The notes beneath the pieces were generated by a model that saw only the letters and a list, made by a program, of their open reading frames with translations, did not search any database and was not told the DNA's origin. Below are positions 14,959 to 25,393 of a DNA stretch of 33,679 nucleotides, in pieces. The translations under genes and the position numbers were made by a program. The DNA is from Acidithiobacillus sp. GTDB lineage: Bacteria; Pseudomonadota; Gammaproteobacteria; Acidithiobacillales; Acidithiobacillaceae. Location: positions 1 through 33,679 of the forward strand of contig NZ_JAGDVS010000037.1 of NCBI RefSeq assembly GCF_023255755.1. The letters are read 5' to 3'. Numbering within the stretch: position 1 is the first letter of the stretch; each line of letters starts with the position of its first letter.

Positions 14959-15575
14959 CGATAGCCTTCCTCGCGCAGTACACGCTGCACGGCAGGCCTG
15001 GCCCGCAGGCGTTGGTAGTGGGCGTCGCAATGTTCAGGTAGCGGGATGCCCAGCCGGGCTGCCCAGAACTCCACGTAAAACAGCGCCGCATCGGCGATGG
15101 AGAAGCCGCCGGTGACATAATCCAATCCGGCAAGGGCGTCATTCATGATGGCGAATCCCTGATTGACGATTTCCCGTCCGCGCGCCTGCACGGCTGCGTG
15201 ATCGGCGGCGTTGGGGGTGAAGGTGTCCGTAATGAAAATGCGGGCGAAGCCCTGGCCGTGCAGGGTGCCGACAGCATAGTCCATGACTTCCAGCACGCGC
15301 GCCTCGCCGTCGGGATACTCTGGCAGCAGTTTCGCCTTGGGGTGGGTGCGTGCCAGCCACCAGGCGATGGCCTGGAATTCAGTCAGCGCCGTGCCGTCCC
15401 GACGCACCAGGGTGGGGATGGTGGACTTCGGATTGATGGCGCGGTACTCGGGCTTGTGGTGCTCGCCGGCTGGCAGATTGACGATCCAGGCCTCGAAGGG
15501 GAGATCCAGTTCTTCCAGCAGAATATGGATGCCGGTGGAGCATGATCCGGGGGTCATGTAGAAGCGCATCGCCAT
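14955..15575 (-). CDS. Glutathione S-transferase family protein (beta-class-like)
   Basis: MAMRFYMTPGSCSTGIHILLEELDLPFEAWIVNL...YRAINPKSTIPTLVRRDGTALTEFQAIAWWLA...YVTGGFSIADAALFYVEFWAARLGIPLPEH. Confidence 0.88.
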   Translation of the reverse strand: MAMRFYMTPGSCSTGIHILLEELDLPFEAWIVNLPAGEHHKPEYRAINPKSTIPTLVRRDGTALTEFQAIAWWLARTHPKAKLLPEYPDGEARVLEVMDYAVGTLHGQGFARIFITDTFTPNAADHAAVQARGREIVNQGFAIMNDALAGLDYVTGGFSIADAALFYVEFWAARLGIPLPEHCDAHYQRLRARPAVQRVLREEGYR

Positions 15576-15928
15576 CAGTTGTCCTCTTTAAACCGTTCCG
15601 GCTGGTTTTTGCGGTACACCCGCAGCCACATCAAGGTATCTGGTGCCAGCGCGCGCACCGCGAGCCAGAGCAGGGTGTCCTCTGCTTTATCACTGGTTGC
15701 GAGGCGCTGGTCGAGGGCGCGCCAGCCTTCCCAGTCTATTTCCACCAACAGGGCGTGGATCTCTGGCGACAGGAGCAGGGCGGACTTGCTCATGAGGCGA
15801 AGCTGGCGTCGAGTTTCTGCGCGGGTGAGGCGCGACGCGAGAAACTCTTCCTTCTCCAGCCCTTCAGTCAGCGTGAGTACGGCAGTCCCCGCCTCTTCAA
15901 TCGCGTTAAAGGGCGAGATGCTCAGCAT
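15575..15928 (-). CDS. Uncharacterised protein in fix operon run
   Basis: 117 aa ORF, collinear; stop overlaps GST start. Confidence 0.65.
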   Translation of the reverse strand: MLSISPFNAIEEAGTAVLTLTEGLEKEEFLASRLTRAETRRQLRLMSKSALLLSPEIHALLVEIDWEGWRALDQRLATSDKAEDTLLWLAVRALAPDTLMWLRVYRKNQPERFKEDN

Positions 15929-15976: not shown

Positions 15977-16471
15977 TCAATGCGCCGTCAGACCATCGGC
16001 ATAGGCGCGGATGACGGAGGCTCCTACCAGATCGTGAGGGTCCAGTTCGCCGATCTTTTCCAGAACCTCCCGGCATTCGTCCAGTTGCTTGCGGCGTAAC
16101 AGGATGAAACTCAGGCCCTTCAGGGTGAAGAGATAAAAATGGGCAGGACTGTGAATCACGGACCAGTCTGCGGTGCCTGGAGCGAGGTGCTGCCAGTTGG
16201 GGGGGAAACCGCCCAGTCGTGCCCCGCTGGCCAGGGCGGTGCGTGCTATCTCTTCGGCCTCCGCCAACCGGGACTGGCGAAACAGCAGCTTGTACATGGC
16301 AAAATAGGCGGGCAGGTAATCCGGATCGGTCAGTAGATGCTGCCTCAGCAGTTTTTCCACCTCGGTCGGGTATGTGCTACTGGCCAGTGCAGTCTCCAGC
16401 AGCGCAGCCACCTGCCCGGTCGGGTCGGCAAAGGGCAGGGTGATCTCGCCGAGGGCACCGTCAGGGCTCAT
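15977..16471 (-). CDS. TPR-like protein of unknown function
   Basis: Helical-repeat pattern: LLRQHLLTDPDYLPAYFAMYKLLFRQSRLAEAEEIARTAL...LKGLSFILLRRKQLDECREVLEKIGELDPHD. Confidence 0.75.
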   Translation of the reverse strand: MSPDGALGEITLPFADPTGQVAALLETALASSTYPTEVEKLLRQHLLTDPDYLPAYFAMYKLLFRQSRLAEAEEIARTALASGARLGGFPPNWQHLAPGTADWSVIHSPAHFYLFTLKGLSFILLRRKQLDECREVLEKIGELDPHDLVGASVIRAYADGLTAH

Positions 16472-16796
16472 TGGACCAAGCCTCCGGCGTCGGGTAGAGG
16501 CGGGTGACGGGTGTGCCGCCGATCAGATGTTCGTCGATAATGACGTCGATATCATCCTGACGTACTCCCGCGTAAAGGATGCCTTCGGGATAAACCAGCA
16601 CATTGGGACCCTCGCCGCAGGGTCCCAGACAACCGCACTGAGTCAGGGCGAAACGCCCCCAGAGTTTGCGTGCTTCAAAGGTGTCCTGAAAAGTACGGAG
16701 CAGATCCGCGGAGCCTTGAGTGCCGCAGGAGCCCTTGGGATGACTCGGCGGCCTGGACTGGACGCAGACGAAGACGTGGCGTTCTGGTTTGCTCAT
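16461..16796 (-). CDS. Thioredoxin-fold [2Fe-2S] ferredoxin (Shethna protein I-like)
   Basis: RHVFVCVQSRPPSHPKGSCGTQGSADLLRTF...ALTQCGCLGPCGEGPNVLVYPEGILY; four-Cys pattern of this family. Confidence 0.9.
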   Translation of the reverse strand: MSKPERHVFVCVQSRPPSHPKGSCGTQGSADLLRTFQDTFEARKLWGRFALTQCGCLGPCGEGPNVLVYPEGILYAGVRQDDIDVIIDEHLIGGTPVTRLYPTPEAWSNEP

Positions 16797-16809: not shown

Positions 16810-17097
16810 TTAACCGAACTTGAAAAGGATGCCGTGACCGCCCCGTGGATAGGACCAATCCACGTTGCGATATTCGGAACAAATGATCCGACAGGTGCCG
16901 CACTCCAGGCAGCCGTCCGTGGTCAGGACCACACCACCGCCCTCGTCTTTGGCGTAACAGGCCGCAGGACAGGCGAAGGTGCAGGACTGGGTTTTACAAT
17001 CATCCGCGCAGACCTGAGGATCGCTGATCTGGATATGCGGCCGGCCTTCATCGACCCGGTAGCGGTTTTGAAACAGTTTCTCTTCGATCTTGATCAT
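16810..17097 (-). CDS. fixX: Ferredoxin-like protein FixX
   Basis: [70 protein letters not shown] overlap with fixC stop. Confidence 0.95.
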
Positions 17098-18392
17098 CGC
17101 GTTGCCCTCCACATGCGGTAAGCGTCTCCCACCAAACCCCACAACGAGCGTTGCTGTACAAAGCTGCCCCGAATGGTCTTTTCCTTGCTGTGCTTATCCT
17201 GACCATCGACCATCAGCATGGTATGCGCGGCGCGGTTGAGGAGTTGCGGATACACCGAAAAGAAATGCGGATTGCCGTGCAGGATATCAGGCAACTCCTT
17301 GTATTTCCGCAAATCTTTCATGACGAAACTGTCGTCCAGCGCGGTTTTGTAACGGGCAAGATGGGGGGCCGTACAGGGGAGCTTCATGTCTTTCAGCGCG
17401 ATAACCGTTTCTGCGGCCAGCCGGCCACTGGTCATCGCCAGGTTGGAGCCTTCGCGGTGGACCGCATTTACCAGTCCGGCGCTGTCCCCCGCAATCATCC
17501 AGCCCTCGCCGTAGAGGGTCGGAACGGCCTTGTAGCCCCCTTCGGGAATCAGGTGGGCGGCATACTCCTTCATTTCGCCCCCCTCAATCAACGGGGCAAT
17601 GGCCGGATGCGCCTTGAGTTCTTCGAGGAGGGTATAGGGCGCGATGCCCGCTTTTTTGAAGTCGGACAAGAGGCAACCGATGCCCAGCGTGATGGATTCC
17701 TTGTTGGTATAGAGGAAGGCGGTGCCGACCATGCCGTGGGTGACGGCGCCGGCGATCTCAATGACCACCCCTTCGTTGCCCTTGATGTTGAAACGGCTCT
17801 GGACGACCTCCTCGGGCAGAAAGTGAATTTCCTTGACCGCGAGCGCGACATTTTTAGCTTCGAGTTCGCCATGGAAGCCGGCTTTTTTGGCCAACAGCGA
17901 ATTGACGCCATCCGCCAGGATCACCACATCGGCATAAATGTCGCCTCCCTCACGATCGGTACGGACGCCGATGACCTTTTTGCCTTCCTGGATGAGCTCG
18001 GTGACCGTCGTCTCGCAGATGACCAGGCCGCCTGCGGCCTTGACCTTCCCGGAGAACCACTTGTCGAAAGGCGCCCGGAGGATGGTATAACGATTGGGCT
18101 GGTCGCTGTTAAAGGCATCCGAGCGATAGTTGGTACCGATGAAGGATTTTTCATCCAGCACCCACATGCGCTGTTCGATGACGTGGCGCTCCAACGGGGC
18201 GTCGTCGCGGAAATCGGGAATGATGCGCTCCAGCGCGTCGGCGTAGAGAATGGCCCCCTGGACGTTTTTGGTGCCGGGGGTTTCACCGCGCTCCAGTTGC
18301 AATACGCTCAGACCCGCCTGGGCCATGGTATACGCGGCCGCATTACCGGCGGGGCCGGCACCTACCACAATAGCATCAAATTTTTCGGCCAT
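17094..18392 (-). CDS. fixC: FAD-dependent ETF-quinone oxidoreductase FixC
   Basis: 432 aa; [82 protein letters not shown]. Confidence 0.96.
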
Positions 18393-18408: not shown

Positions 18409-19503
18409 TTAACCAGCCCGGCGGTTCACAGCCAGGCGACTGCGAAAGGCGTCGGTGAGGACGGGAAGGATCTGCACGGCGTCGCCGACAATGGCATAAG
18501 TGGCAAAGTCGAAGATGGGCGCATTGGGATCGTTGTTGATGGCGATGATGACGTCGGAGGCTTCCATGCCGACGCGGTGCTGAATCGCCCCGGAGATGCC
18601 CGCAGCAATATAAAGCTTGGGACGCACAGTCTTGCCCGATTGCCCGACCTGACGGTCAGCGGGTAGCCAGCCGGCATGGGTCACCGGACGCGATCCGCCG
18701 ACTTCGGCGCCGAGTACGGCAGCCAGGTCCCAGATCAGGCGAAAATTTTCGGCCTTGCCCATGCCTCGGCCGCCCGCCACGATAATGTCGGCATAGGCGA
18801 GCTGAGCCTGCTCCTGGGCCTCGTCGGGGATGAACTCCAGGACCTTGGCGATAATGTCGTCTTCCTGCATCTGCAGGTTTTCAGAAATGACACGGCCGCT
18901 GCGTTCTGGCATGGCGTCGGGCATGGCCATGACCCGGGGGCGGATGGTGGCCATCTGCGGGCGATAGTTCAGAGTCTGGATGGTGCAGAGCAAGCTGCCG
19001 CCGAAGGTCGGACGGGTGGCGAGGAGTCCGCGATTGTCCGGGTCAATGGCGAGTTCCGTGCAGTCTGCGGTCAAACCCGTGAGCAGAGTGGTGGCCACAC
19101 TACCGGCGAGATCGCGGCCCAGGGTGGTGGCGCCGAGCAACAGAATCTCCGGCTGATAGCGGTTGACGAGGTCGGTCATGGCCTTGGTGTAGGGCTCGTT
19201 GCGATAGTCCGTGAGAATGGGATCGGCCACGATATAGGCCACATCGGCGCCATAGGTGAAAGCGTTACGGGCAGCGGCACCCAGTTCATCGCTGCTGCCG
19301 CCGAGGATGACGGCGCCCAGTTCTACGTCGAGAATATCGGCCAGCTTGCGTCCTTCGCCGAGCAATTCCCAGGACATCTGGTGTACCTGGCCCCGTTCCA
19401 TTTCGACAAACACCCAGATCCCCTTGTAGGCCGCCAGGCGGGGGTCCAGCTCCAGGCGCTTTTTGCCTTTGGGCTTTGCGGGTGCGGCAGTGTTCTCGCT
19501 CAT
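18409..19503 (-). CDS. fixB: Electron transfer flavoprotein subunit alpha FixB
   Basis: [32 protein letters not shown]-terminal [73 protein letters not shown]. Confidence 0.96.
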
Positions 19504-19522: not shown

Positions 19523-20365
19523 TTATGGGGTGATCAGGCCGAGTTCCTGCGCCAGGCGCGGGTGCTGGCTGCTGATAATATCCAGGATGGCGTTGGCGGT
19601 GCCGCTGGCGTCCAGATCAGCGCCGATCATCTGTGCCTTCACGGCCCGGGGCTTGGGGGTGAATATCTTGCTGACCACTGTGGGCGAGCCCTTGAGGCCG
19701 ATTTTGCTGACGTCCTCAATACCGGCGCGCTCTTTATTCCATTTAGGCACGTCAAAGCGAGCCGAGCGGAACATATCATCCATGCCCGCGAAGCGGATCT
19801 GGTTGCTACCCTCCAGCATGGTGATCAGTGCGGGCAGGCGGGTCCGGATCACCTGCACACCGCCTTCAGAACGGCGTTGTACGGTGATGCTGCGCTCCTC
19901 AAGGTCCAACGCATCGATAGCCGATACGTAGGTGAGGAGTTGCAGGCCCAGGCGCTTGGCAATGCCCGGTCCGACCTGCGCGGTATCCCCGTCAATGGTC
20001 TGCTTGCCCGTGAAAACCAGATCGACGGGATGTTCCTCACCAATTTTGCGGATGGTCTGTGCCAGGGCGAAGGAGGTCGCCAGGGTATCGGCACCGGCGA
20101 AGGCGCGGTCGGTCAGGAGTATCACGTCGTCGGCACCATAGGCGATGGCCTTGCGCAGTGCGTCTTCCGCTTGGGGCGGCCCCATGGTCAGCACGGTGAC
20201 TCGCCCGCCGAAGCGGTCTTTGAGGCGCAAGGCCTCTTCGATGGCGAAAACGTCGAAGGGATTGATGATGGCGGGTACACCCTGCCGCATGATGGTATTG
20301 GTGACCGGATGCACCCGGATCTGGGCGCTGTCGGGAACCTGTTTGATACAGACGACAATATGCAT
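19523..20365 (-). CDS. fixA: Electron transfer flavoprotein subunit beta FixA
   Basis: [89 protein letters not shown] upstream of ATG. Confidence 0.96.
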
Positions 20366-20422
20366 GGCGTACTCCTGTTACCGATCTGTCGGTGATCTGA
20401 AAGATGCTGTTGCACCGATCTA

Positions 20423-20438
20423 AGCAATCTTCATTCCA
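20423..20438 (-). promoter_or_regulatory. Candidate sigma-54 (-24/-12) promoter of fixABCX
   Basis: Minus-strand TGGAATGAAGATTGCT: GG and GC at required spacing, perfect TTGCW -12 box; predicted TSS near 20412, 47 nt before fixA ATG. Confidence 0.7.
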
Positions 20439-20515
20439 GATACGACTGTCTTGTTAATTTCAAGATAAACAGTCTTTTGGCTAGAATGCACCAGAAAAAC
20501 AACGCCAGCAGCAGA

Positions 20516-20531
20516 TGTAGGCTTTGCGACA
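20516..20531. promoter_or_regulatory. Candidate NifA upstream activator sequence TGT-N10-ACA
   Basis: TGTAGGCTTTGCGACA on + strand, centred about 111 bp upstream of the predicted sigma-54 TSS, inside the 191-bp intergenic region. Confidence 0.65.
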
Positions 20532-20556
20532 AAATGCATGCTTTATCACGGTAAAC

Positions 20557-22197
20557 TCAATGCGTCCGCTGGCTGTCGGTGACGGGAACGGCTTTGGCGA
20601 GGAGTACGGCATTGCTGCTGAGGGCAAACTCCCGCCAGGCGGCAGCGAGGTCGCGGGCGATGGTGGACAGGTATTCCTTGCCGGGTTCGTGCTCTTCGGG
20701 AAAATTGGAGAGCGCACAGGAACTGCGGTTGAAGGCGAGGGCCTCACTGATCAGTGTCTGATGAACGGTTGCGAAAGGTGCATGCACTTCCGGCGTTAGA
20801 TCAGAACGCCCCTTATGGACACCCGTGCCGCTGGTGTCAAAAGGCAATGCGCTCAGTTGGCGCAATGCCTCGCTATAGAACTGCTCCATGGTGTCGAGCA
20901 GGGCGCGCTGGGTCAACTGTTCCTTGTGCTGGCGGGCCAGATATTGATTCAGGTGGCGGCGATAGGTCGCCAGCAAGTCCGGCTGTTGCGCGGTCACCCA
21001 TGTACCGAATATGGCGATGCAAGCGGTGTTGTCGGCAGGACCGTTCAGTGCTTCCGGGCCGCGCGATATGGGGTCAGACACGAGTGTCCGCTGAATGCGG
21101 GCGGCGGATTCCAGGGCGCCTTCCAGATAGCCCCCGCCATAGCCCGCCGTTTCAGAACCGCCGAAAAACAGCTTGTTTTTCCACAGCGGCAATCGCAGGT
21201 TCGGGTTGTCGTATTCGGGATGCGTACTGGGAGGCGTGCGGTCCAGGGTGCTGCAGGTGTAGGCTTCCTGAGCCCAGTCATGGACATGTTGTTCTCCGTC
21301 TTCTGCCGGCAGATCAAAGACCTGTACCAGTTGGCTGGAGATCAGTAAGGCCATGGTGGCGGGCGGGATGGTGGCGCGAAATGCCGGTGGGAGGGAAAAA
21401 AAGGCGCCGAGTGCGGCCTGCTCACCGGTGGCATCACAGGCGTCGAAAATCTCGGGGAGTACCACCTGTTCGTGGGTGACGAAGGCGTTCCCGGACTGGC
21501 CCGAGTCCCGCCAGAACGCCTGATCGTAAGCAACGACCACCTTGGCTTGATCGGCCATCCAGGTGTGGGTCGTGCGCATGGCCTCGCGCAGGGACGCGTT
21601 CAGGGGAGGATCGAAACGGACGTGCTCTTCCAGCAGACGGGGAGGGAGGGCCAGAACCGCATGACGCGCATTGACCTGCACGATCCTTTCGTTGTGGCGG
21701 AAACTGAGAATAACGTAATCGTCATCTTCCTCCACGGATAGCAGCGTATGGCCCAGGTGCAACCGGTCCACAGGGAGTTGCGCGGTCATGGCGGTCACGA
21801 GACGTCCCATCCCGCCTACCACGCGCCGGGCACCCCCATGTACCTCTGTCAACTTCATGACCTCCGGTTTTTCATCTGTTGTATTCAGGCGCAGGATGTC
21901 ACCGTGGTCGTGCTGGGCAAACGTATCGAGCCCAAGGCCCGAGATCATCTGGGTGACGCGCGGTTGGGTATCCGGCCAGAACCAGGTTGGCCCCAGATCC
22001 ACCGCCAGATTATTGCGTCGGCAGCGTTCGGAAAATATACGCCCGCCCATACGCTCACGCGCTTCATAGAGTGTGAAATCCCGCCCGCGCTCCTGCAGGC
22101 TTTTGGCCAATGCAAGCCCACATAAGCCACCACCAACAATGATTGTATCTGGCACGGTTCCGATCCTCATGGCTGCATCATTTCGCGTATCCAGCAA
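20557..22197 (-). CDS. Flavin-dependent amine oxidase (monoamine oxidase family)
   Basis: DTIIVGGGLCGLALAKSLQERGRDFTLYEARERMGGRI, VDLGPTWFWP, C-terminal LFFGGSETAGYGGGYLEGALESAARI. Start may instead be ATG at 22170. Confidence 0.9.
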   Translation of the reverse strand: MLDTRNDAAMRIGTVPDTIIVGGGLCGLALAKSLQERGRDFTLYEARERMGGRIFSERCRRNNLAVDLGPTWFWPDTQPRVTQMISGLGLDTFAQHDHGDILRLNTTDEKPEVMKLTEVHGGARRVVGGMGRLVTAMTAQLPVDRLHLGHTLLSVEEDDDYVILSFRHNERIVQVNARHAVLALPPRLLEEHVRFDPPLNASLREAMRTTHTWMADQAKVVVAYDQAFWRDSGQSGNAFVTHEQVVLPEIFDACDATGEQAALGAFFSLPPAFRATIPPATMALLISSQLVQVFDLPAEDGEQHVHDWAQEAYTCSTLDRTPPSTHPEYDNPNLRLPLWKNKLFFGGSETAGYGGGYLEGALESAARIQRTLVSDPISRGPEALNGPADNTACIAIFGTWVTAQQPDLLATYRRHLNQYLARQHKEQLTQRALLDTMEQFYSEALRQLSALPFDTSGTGVHKGRSDLTPEVHAPFATVHQTLISEALAFNRSSCALSNFPEEHEPGKEYLSTIARDLAAAWREFALSSNAVLLAKAVPVTDSQRTH

Positions 22198-22729: not shown

Positions 22730-25393
22730 ATGAACGGCCTGACATTCAGACCAGACTCTCTGCCTAATTTCCTGGGGCTGCAGGAAGAGGATTTTCAGCT
22801 CATCGATCGATATCAGTCTATTTTACAAGCAGAAACAGGTGCATTAGCCCATATCTTTTACGATTATCTGCTCTCTCATCCGGTTACTGCTGCTGTTTTC
22901 CGTGACTTCACGCCTGAACGACTGGATGCCCTGATCAAAAAACAGTCCGAACATATCGGCGGACTCCTGACCAACCATCTTGATAAACTCTGGCGCGAAT
23001 CCATGCGCAGCATCGGCGCTATGCACCACCATCTCGGCATCGAGCCTTCCTGGGTTGCCGGTGCCTATATCCTTTACTGGCGCCAGTGGCAAAAAATACT
23101 GCAGGAACAGGTTCCGGCAAGCGAGCGGAATTTATTGCGGGATGCGTTGTTCCGACTATTGATCGGCGATCTGATGATTCAACTGGATGGCTATGCCCGA
23201 GCCTCCCGTGAAACGGACGCAGAGCGGCTGGCGTTATTCGATGTACTACTGGGTGTACTTGCGGTTCCCCGTGGCACCGATTCTCCGCGTCCGGAGGGAT
23301 TACTTCAGCAAATCTGCGAAGCCTTACCGCGTAAAAGTTCCAGTGTACGGCTGGCCGGCTATCTTGTGAGCAGCGCCATGGGAGATACATTATCATTGGA
23401 ATGTGCTGCCGGGCTTCCGTTGCCTACACTACAAATAGCAGAAATGTCAGGAGGCCCCTGCTGGGACGCGTTGGAAAAGGGACAGACCGTCATCCAGTCC
23501 ACAGATGATCCTAACGCACCGGAATGGATCAAAGTGTTGCACAATCGCGTTGCAGAAATTGGCATCTTTCCTTTTGGCGCGGGCGAAATGCGCGGAGTCG
23601 GGCTGGTCGGTGCACGGCAGAAGGGATATTTTCGCAGGGTCGGATCCGTCTATTTTGATGCCTTTGCGCATCTTGGCGAGTTAGTGCTGTTGTTACGTAA
23701 CCAATCTTTGCACGACCCGCTTACCAACCTGCCTAATCGCGTACTCTTCCTGGACCGCCTGACCGTTGCGCAACAGCAGACTCTGCGACAAGAGCGGTTG
23801 CTGGGTGTCGGGATCCTCGATCTGGATGGCTTCAAACAGGTCAATGACCGTCTGGGGCATGGTGCCGGTGATCATTTGCTTCAGGTAGTGGTGGAACGCC
23901 TGCAAACGCAACTACGTGTGGGGGATACCCTGGCGCGCATGGGTGGCGATGAATTCGGACTCTTGTTGCTTGGCTTGGAACGACTTGAAGATCTGGAAGG
24001 GATCTGTAGCCGGCTACTCGACACCATCCGTGAACCGATCGAAATTCACGGTGAATTGGTCAATGTTTCAAGCAGTCTGGGGATGACCATTTACCCTTTC
24101 GACGACAATAATGCAAGCATGCTCATACAGCATGCGGATATGGCACTGTATGCCGCAAAAAACGCCGGTCGGGACCAGTTTTGTTTGCATACTCTGGCAT
24201 TGGATGAGGCCATACAGGCAGCACAGGATACCCGCACCATGTTGGAGAATGCGCTGCATGAAGGCCGCTTGCTTTTGCACTACCAGCCCATTATTTCCGG
24301 TGCCGGCACGCTATTGGGCGTAGAAGCACTGTTACGATTGCATCATCCCGAAAAGGGGATATTGCCTCCGGCAGCTTTTTTCAGTGCATTGGATCACCAC
24401 CGTCTTGCGCGCCCGCTTGGACGCTTCGTCCTTGATGCCGCATTGCGGCAAGGCACCCTCTGGCAAAAACAGGGTCTGCCGTTGCGGATTTCGGTGAATA
24501 TCAGTACCCGCCACTTACTTGATGCCCGTTTCCTGGACGATCTCAAAGAAGTCTTATTGAGGTACCCAGACCTACCGCCCAGTCAGATCGAAATCGAAGT
24601 CACCGAATCCGCTCCCTTGGCGGATGTTCCCGGAGCACAAGTGCTACTACGCGCCTGCAATGATCTCGGTATACGGGTGGCGTTGGATGATTTCGGCACT
24701 GGCAACGCCTCTTTGAGTTATCTGCAACAACTTCCGGCGCAATCCATCAAAATCGATCAGAGTTTTGTACGTAACATTCTGAATGATCCTAAAGACCTCG
24801 CCATAGTAACGGCGGTTATTACCGCCAGTCGCATGCTCGGTATGGAGGTCGTCGCCGAGGGGGTAGAAACAACGGCACACGCCACGCTGCTGGTAAAAAT
24901 GGGCTGTAGCCAACTGCAGGGATACCTTTTCTCCAAACCACTACCACCCGAAGATATCCTCGCCTGGAAAAATCATTTTCGGCACGTCCCCCCATGGGAG
25001 GAAAGCCTGGCCCCCATGGACGTGCTTGCCCCCATTCTGGAAGGGCATACCTTGCGCGTCCAGGAAGTTCTTCGTGCCTTGCGCGAGAAAACCGCCTTCC
25101 CTAGCCATGTCCTGGATGAACATGCCGAAGAGTTTTGCCACCTGGGGAGATGGCTGCACGGAGATGGTGCACGACTCTTCGGACAAAACCCCAGATTCAC
25201 GAAGTTGCTCACCCGTCATGTACGGATTCATCAACTTGCGCGCGAAGCACATGCGTTTCTGAGCGCAGAAAAAATTGCGGCGGCACTGCGTTACGGAAAC
25301 CTCCTCGAACGGGAAAACCTTTACTTAATAGAGGAGTTATTGGCTATCACTGGACAGATACCGGGCCGCCACCCTATCAGTCAGCCGCCATGA
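22730..25393 (+). CDS. Globin-coupled GAF-GGDEF-EAL protein with C-terminal CZB-like zinc-binding domain
   Basis: N-terminal protoglobin-like region (KQSEHIGGLLTNHLDKLW...HHHLGIEPSWVAGAYILYWRQW); ARMGGDEFGLLLLGL; GVEALLRLHHPEKG, ALDDFGTGNASLSYLQQLPAQSIKIDQSFV, VVAEGVET; C-terminal HAEEFCHLGRWLHGDG...RHVRIHQLAREAH resembles CZB. Confidence 0.88.
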   Translation: MNGLTFRPDSLPNFLGLQEEDFQLIDRYQSILQAETGALAHIFYDYLLSHPVTAAVFRDFTPERLDALIKKQSEHIGGLLTNHLDKLWRESMRSIGAMHHHLGIEPSWVAGAYILYWRQWQKILQEQVPASERNLLRDALFRLLIGDLMIQLDGYARASRETDAERLALFDVLLGVLAVPRGTDSPRPEGLLQQICEALPRKSSSVRLAGYLVSSAMGDTLSLECAAGLPLPTLQIAEMSGGPCWDALEKGQTVIQSTDDPNAPEWIKVLHNRVAEIGIFPFGAGEMRGVGLVGARQKGYFRRVGSVYFDAFAHLGELVLLLRNQSLHDPLTNLPNRVLFLDRLTVAQQQTLRQERLLGVGILDLDGFKQVNDRLGHGAGDHLLQVVVERLQTQLRVGDTLARMGGDEFGLLLLGLERLEDLEGICSRLLDTIREPIEIHGELVNVSSSLGMTIYPFDDNNASMLIQHADMALYAAKNAGRDQFCLHTLALDEAIQAAQDTRTMLENALHEGRLLLHYQPIISGAGTLLGVEALLRLHHPEKGILPPAAFFSALDHHRLARPLGRFVLDAALRQGTLWQKQGLPLRISVNISTRHLLDARFLDDLKEVLLRYPDLPPSQIEIEVTESAPLADVPGAQVLLRACNDLGIRVALDDFGTGNASLSYLQQLPAQSIKIDQSFVRNILNDPKDLAIVTAVITASRMLGMEVVAEGVETTAHATLLVKMGCSQLQGYLFSKPLPPEDILAWKNHFRHVPPWEESLAPMDVLAPILEGHTLRVQEVLRALREKTAFPSHVLDEHAEEFCHLGRWLHGDGARLFGQNPRFTKLLTRHVRIHQLAREAHAFLSAEKIAAALRYGNLLERENLYLIEELLAITGQIPGRHPISQPP

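Follow-up and report, generated by a model that had tools for sequence, protein, structure and literature searches.

The fixABCX locus

The window, i.e. the whole 33,679-nt stretch of DNA analysed here, corresponds to contig C67. The assembly totals 2.73 Mb in 203 contigs at 96% completeness, and among named organisms it is closest to species of Acidithiobacillus, for example A. ferruginosus and A. ferrivorans (FixA identity 97-98%). The window contains all four genes fixA, fixB, fixC and fixX, in order, with a 2Fe-2S ferredoxin gene and a TPR-repeat gene that are probably part of the same operon (Table 1). The start of the fixX ORF overlaps fixC, and the ATG in use likely lies further inside. 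Downstream of the TPR gene, positions 15575-15928 encode a 117-aa protein with relatives at 10 of 80 fixA loci sampled from named genomes.

On the other side of fixA is a flavin amine oxidase-like gene, which is found at this position in some Acidithiobacillus only and is a neighbour, not a conserved part of the fix locus. The gene upstream of fixA varies between close Acidithiobacillus species. Divergent from the amine oxidase gene, positions 22730-25393 encode a protoglobin-GGDEF-EAL-CZB protein, likely an oxygen-sensing cyclic-di-GMP enzyme. A short protein at 25554-26477 matches chemoreceptors, Aer2 among them, over their signalling part.

Table 1 Genes and promoter features of the fixA region, with the matching promoter pairs found elsewhere in the assembly. 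Positions are those of the window unless a contig is given.
Feature	Position	Strand	Evidence and remarks
TPR-repeat protein	15977..16471	(-)	TPR Pfam matches; found in 31/80 fixA loci
2Fe-2S thioredoxin-like ferredoxin	16461..16796	(-)	NF041613, 114.5 bits, under cut-off 195; relatives in 46/80 fixA loci
fixX, ferredoxin-like	16810..17142	(-)	NF011993 FixX, 69 bits, under cut-off 166; PF05187 above cut-off
fixC, ETF-quinone oxidoreductase-like flavoprotein	17094..18392	(-)	FixC-type NCBIfam models, 333-355 bits, under their cut-offs
fixB, ETF alpha-like	18409..19503	(-)	PF01012 and PF00766
fixA, ETF beta-like	19523..20365	(-)	Pfam PF01012, 152 bits; NCBIfam ETF beta models
Predicted start at 20412; 47-nt leader containing an AGGAG ribosome-binding site	20366..20412	(-)	From -12 position and sequence
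Sigma-54 promoter -24/-12	20423..20438	(-)	TGGAATGAAGATTGCT = TGG-N8-TTGC; kept in 12/12 family orthologues
UAS-to-(-24) spacer	20439..20515	(-)	77 nt, 40% GC; IHF-like matches weak
NifA UAS	20516..20531	(-)	TGTCGCAAAGCCTACA = TGT-N10-ACA, centre -111.5; kept in 11/11 Acidithiobacillaceae fixA upstreams
Flavin amine oxidase-like gene	20557..22197	(-)	PF01593; upstream neighbour of fixA
UAS + sigma-54 pair, nifU	C188:14467-14571		Whole-assembly pattern scan (also finds the fixA pair)
UAS + sigma-54 pair, nifH	C188:25109-25210		Whole-assembly pattern scan

Promoter elements upstream of fixA

The gap separating fixA from the stop codon of the amine oxidase gene spans 191 bp (20366-20556). The initial annotation had placed a TGT-N10-ACA motif and a -24/-12 element in this gap, and the sequence confirms both positions exactly. 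The GC of the -12 element falls at 20425/20424, with the predicted +1 at 20412; recomputing the estimated leader of about 47 nt and the UAS near -111 gave 47 nt to the fixA ATG (20365) and a UAS centre of -111.5. In NifA/sigma-54 promoters the UAS classically lies about 80-150 bp upstream, a range that includes this value. The sigma-54 element has the GG-N10-GC of a -24/-12 promoter, and its -24 half, TGGAATG, is two positions off the consensus TGGCACG.

The elements were scored using consensus patterns, shuffles and conservation. Among 60,000 dinucleotide-preserving shuffles of the 191-bp gap, the UAS alone appeared in 7.5% and TGG-N8-TTGC in 1.6%, while the two in order and 40-110 nt apart appeared in 17 (2.8e-4). 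An IHF site between the UAS and the -24 is usual in NifA promoters but dispensable. The nifU promoter has an exact match to an IHF-like site; the best match in the fixA spacer has one mismatch and is equalled by 16% of shuffles, which leaves an IHF site at fixA without clear support. The two UASs of fixA (-111.5) and nifH (-105.5) also differ in helical phase. Between the UAS and the -24, the region 20439-20480 contains an imperfect inverted repeat, GACTG..CTTG..CAAG..CAGTC, which is kept in part of the genus and lost in other species; in the relative G014, both outer arms have changed together (GGCTG/CAGCC).

nif genes, regulators and specificity of the motif pair

A second contig of the assembly, C188, carries nifH, nifD, nifU, nifS, nifV and nifB, with a 539-aa ORF after nifD at the expected position of nifK, an assignment made by position. 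The genome encodes a full-length NifA (TIGR01817, 709 bits, cut-off 528.85), adjoining nifHDK, and RpoN (TIGR02395, 516 bits, above cut-off), both on contigs other than the window. Absence of nifA or rpoN, which the initial annotation had recognized as fatal to its reading, is thus not the case here, and the nifHDK genes it had proposed to look for in the genome are accounted for by nifH, nifD and the ORF after them. The NifA of this genome has a C-X4-C motif, CQRNQC. In A. ferrooxidans NifA, a C-X4-C motif has been tied to a direct oxygen response without NifL, according to the accessible part of that study (PMC2607301).

A scan of the 2.73 Mb assembly for TGT-N10-ACA followed by TGG-N8-TTGC at 55-85 nt gave three matches, at fixA, nifU and nifH, and none for a reversed control. 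The nifB gene also has a UAS and a -24/-12 element in the same layout, with a longer spacer of 93 nt. Searching for TGGNAYGNNNNTTGCW gave 11 matches genome-wide versus none for its reversed control, and in an informal comparison the off-register pattern TGG-N10-TGC gave ten scattered matches in the genome and none at fixA. However, the genomes of relatives hold 0-10 copies of the UAS and sigma-54 pair, nifH-negative family members included, so it is partly luck that all three pairs in this genome fall at nif or fix genes, and the pattern alone cannot serve as a diagnostic. The diagnostic feature is the recurrence of the pair at an equal position in orthologous loci. Elsewhere on C188 (locus L064, 4110-4145), two TGT-N10-ACA motifs 20 bp apart occupy the interval separating a WtpA-like transporter gene from a divergent ORF of 565 aa, and may represent a further NifA-related site.

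Conservation in the Acidithiobacillaceae

We compared fixA orthologues from 12 genomes of the family, this one included, at identities of at least 77%. Eleven of these extend far enough upstream to be assessed, and every one has both elements; the UAS centre lies at -111.5 in nine, -112.5 in one and -109.5 in one. The twelfth is cut by a contig end and keeps its -24/-12. When the spacers of other genera are anchored on the -24/-12, they agree with the window at 22-26 of 77 positions (~30%), which is near chance, whereas the promoter itself matches at 10-16 of its 16 bases. The latter agreement is partly by construction, because the -24/-12 anchor was picked by pattern, and the independent part of the conservation is the UAS at the right distance. 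Spacer GC also shifts, from 40% in this genome to 59-65% in relatives of genus g4. At the level of sequence comparison, such retention of the elements while the spacers diverge is a phylogenetic footprint. The initial annotation would have been undermined by motifs missing from close relatives; they are kept in close and distant ones alike.

The fixA region of G014 lacks the amine oxidase gene. Homology to the window stops at 20559, at the amine oxidase stop, which leaves the promoter gap within the conserved block, and the promoter is kept next to a different upstream neighbour (loci L014 and L189). We also considered whether C67 and C188 are contiguous, since the resulting fixA-nifH distance would suit G014. 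This was rejected as unproven because nothing in the G014 stretch corresponds to the part of the window beyond 20559.

Co-occurrence with nif and fixA loci in other bacteria

Among 29 genomes of the family, again counting this one, nifH scored above the cut-off in 14. fixA occurs in 12 of these 14 and in none of the 15 nifH-negative genomes (Fisher p = 1.8e-6, uncorrected for relatedness). In the two nifH-positive genomes where fixA was not found, G007 and G015, the assemblies are incomplete (85% and 81%). Where relatives have both genes on one contig, fixA and nifH are 18-39 kb apart. The tie between this operon and nitrogen fixation, originally drawn from the motifs, is therefore also supported by the nif genes on C188, by the promoter layout shared with nifH and nifU, and by linkage.

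In a wider sample of 80 fixA loci from named genomes, the promoter pair is present at 9 of the 11 loci with a gap of more than 100 nt, compared to 2 of the remaining 69. These two are Acidithiobacillaceae loci in which a mechanically called ORF overlaps the promoter. In most betaproteobacterial loci, fixA sits 10-40 nt behind another ORF and the pair is absent; Methylotenera and Methylophilaceae fixA loci do have it, at about -104. Perhaps fixABCX gains or keeps its own NifA/sigma-54 module whenever it lies outside a larger nif operon, and in the Acidithiobacillaceae that module stayed with the operon while the upstream neighbour was exchanged, though we hold this only tentatively and lean slightly against it.

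Proposed regulation and alternatives

The 191-bp gap is very likely a NifA-activated, sigma-54-dependent promoter of fixABCX, probably reading on into the 2Fe-2S ferredoxin and TPR genes. RpoN-RNA polymerase would park on the -24/-12 as a closed complex. NifA would bind TGT-N10-ACA about 111 bp upstream and, by looping, open this complex under low fixed nitrogen and low oxygen. FixABCX would in turn provide nitrogenase with low-potential electrons. Going by these sequence features, fixABCX would almost certainly be switched on together with nitrogenase. Points that weigh against this model are the copies of the motif pair in nifH-negative relatives, the two departures from consensus in the -24 half, the phase difference between the fixA and nifH UASs, and the two nifH-positive assemblies, both incomplete, in which no fixA was found.

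It is very improbable, though the likeliest of the alternatives, that the -24/-12 is genuine while the main activator is another enhancer-binding protein of the NtrC type or HupR-like, with TGT-N10-ACA incidental. About ten further sigma-54 activator-like proteins are encoded in the genome and could in principle fill this role, but an incidental motif would not be expected between -109.5 and -112.5 in every one of 11 orthologues, nor would it be shared with nifH and nifU at an operon that tracks nifH. We consider it still less probable that the promoter is genuine but a relic, with the Fix proteins in a role outside nitrogen fixation. ETF-like complexes do serve other pathways as well; within the family, however, fixA is confined to nifH-positive members, and the regulatory sites look constrained. 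Equally hard to sustain is a chance origin of the motifs, with fixA transcribed from a sigma-70 promoter or through extension of transcripts of the co-directional amine oxidase gene 191 nt away (read-through): up to several copies of the pattern do occur per genome in relatives, but the shuffle probability within this single gap is low, the elements are conserved across genera, no sigma-70-like promoter was found within 20300-20700, and G014 keeps the promoter behind a neighbour that is no amine oxidase.

Comparison with known systems

NifA control of fixABCX is already known from rhizobia and Azospirillum, and the NifA/sigma-54 promoter favoured here is not novel in kind. The free-living diazotroph Azospirillum brasilense has a fixABCX promoter that is reportedly NifA-dependent, by the title of Sperotto 2004, cited in PMC2607301, as we propose for this genome. 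For the Mesorhizobium loti fixABCX-nifA1 operon, the accessible text describes established NifA control: a -24/-12 element precedes fixA, as here, and expression of that fixABCX is NifA-dependent (PMC3538637). The M. loti element is TTGGCACGAATGATGCT, compared to a -24 half of TGGAATG here, and that operon ends in nifA1, whereas here nifA lies elsewhere, beside nifHDK. On the acid mine drainage fosmid DX-1A-14 (nifV-nifW-fixABCX-nifQ), fixABCX is likewise linked to nif genes, comes from an acid habitat and is accompanied by predicted sites for NifA and sigma-N. Those sites precede nifV and leave fixABCX internal to the operon, while in the window fixA is the first gene and has its own promoter (PMC3912193).

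The nif model of A. ferrooxidans, in the portions of the two papers at hand, likewise includes nifHDK, nifA without nifL, and NifA as the activator (PMC2621215, PMC2607301). We found no mention of a fixA promoter in those portions, or in the corresponding part of a study of Acidithiobacillia sigma factors (PMC12194929). In R. palustris, a bifurcating FixABCX feeds electrons to nitrogenase, as stated in a paper that also cites work in A. vinelandii (PMC9973337).

These comparisons give good support to a genuine NifA/sigma-54 promoter at fixA, conserved and of the usual type. They provide comparative evidence that the NifA regulon of Acidithiobacillus includes the electron-supply operon fixABCX alongside nifH, nifU and nifB. 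This is useful for modelling how bioleaching bacteria fix nitrogen, and it extends a known rule without changing it.
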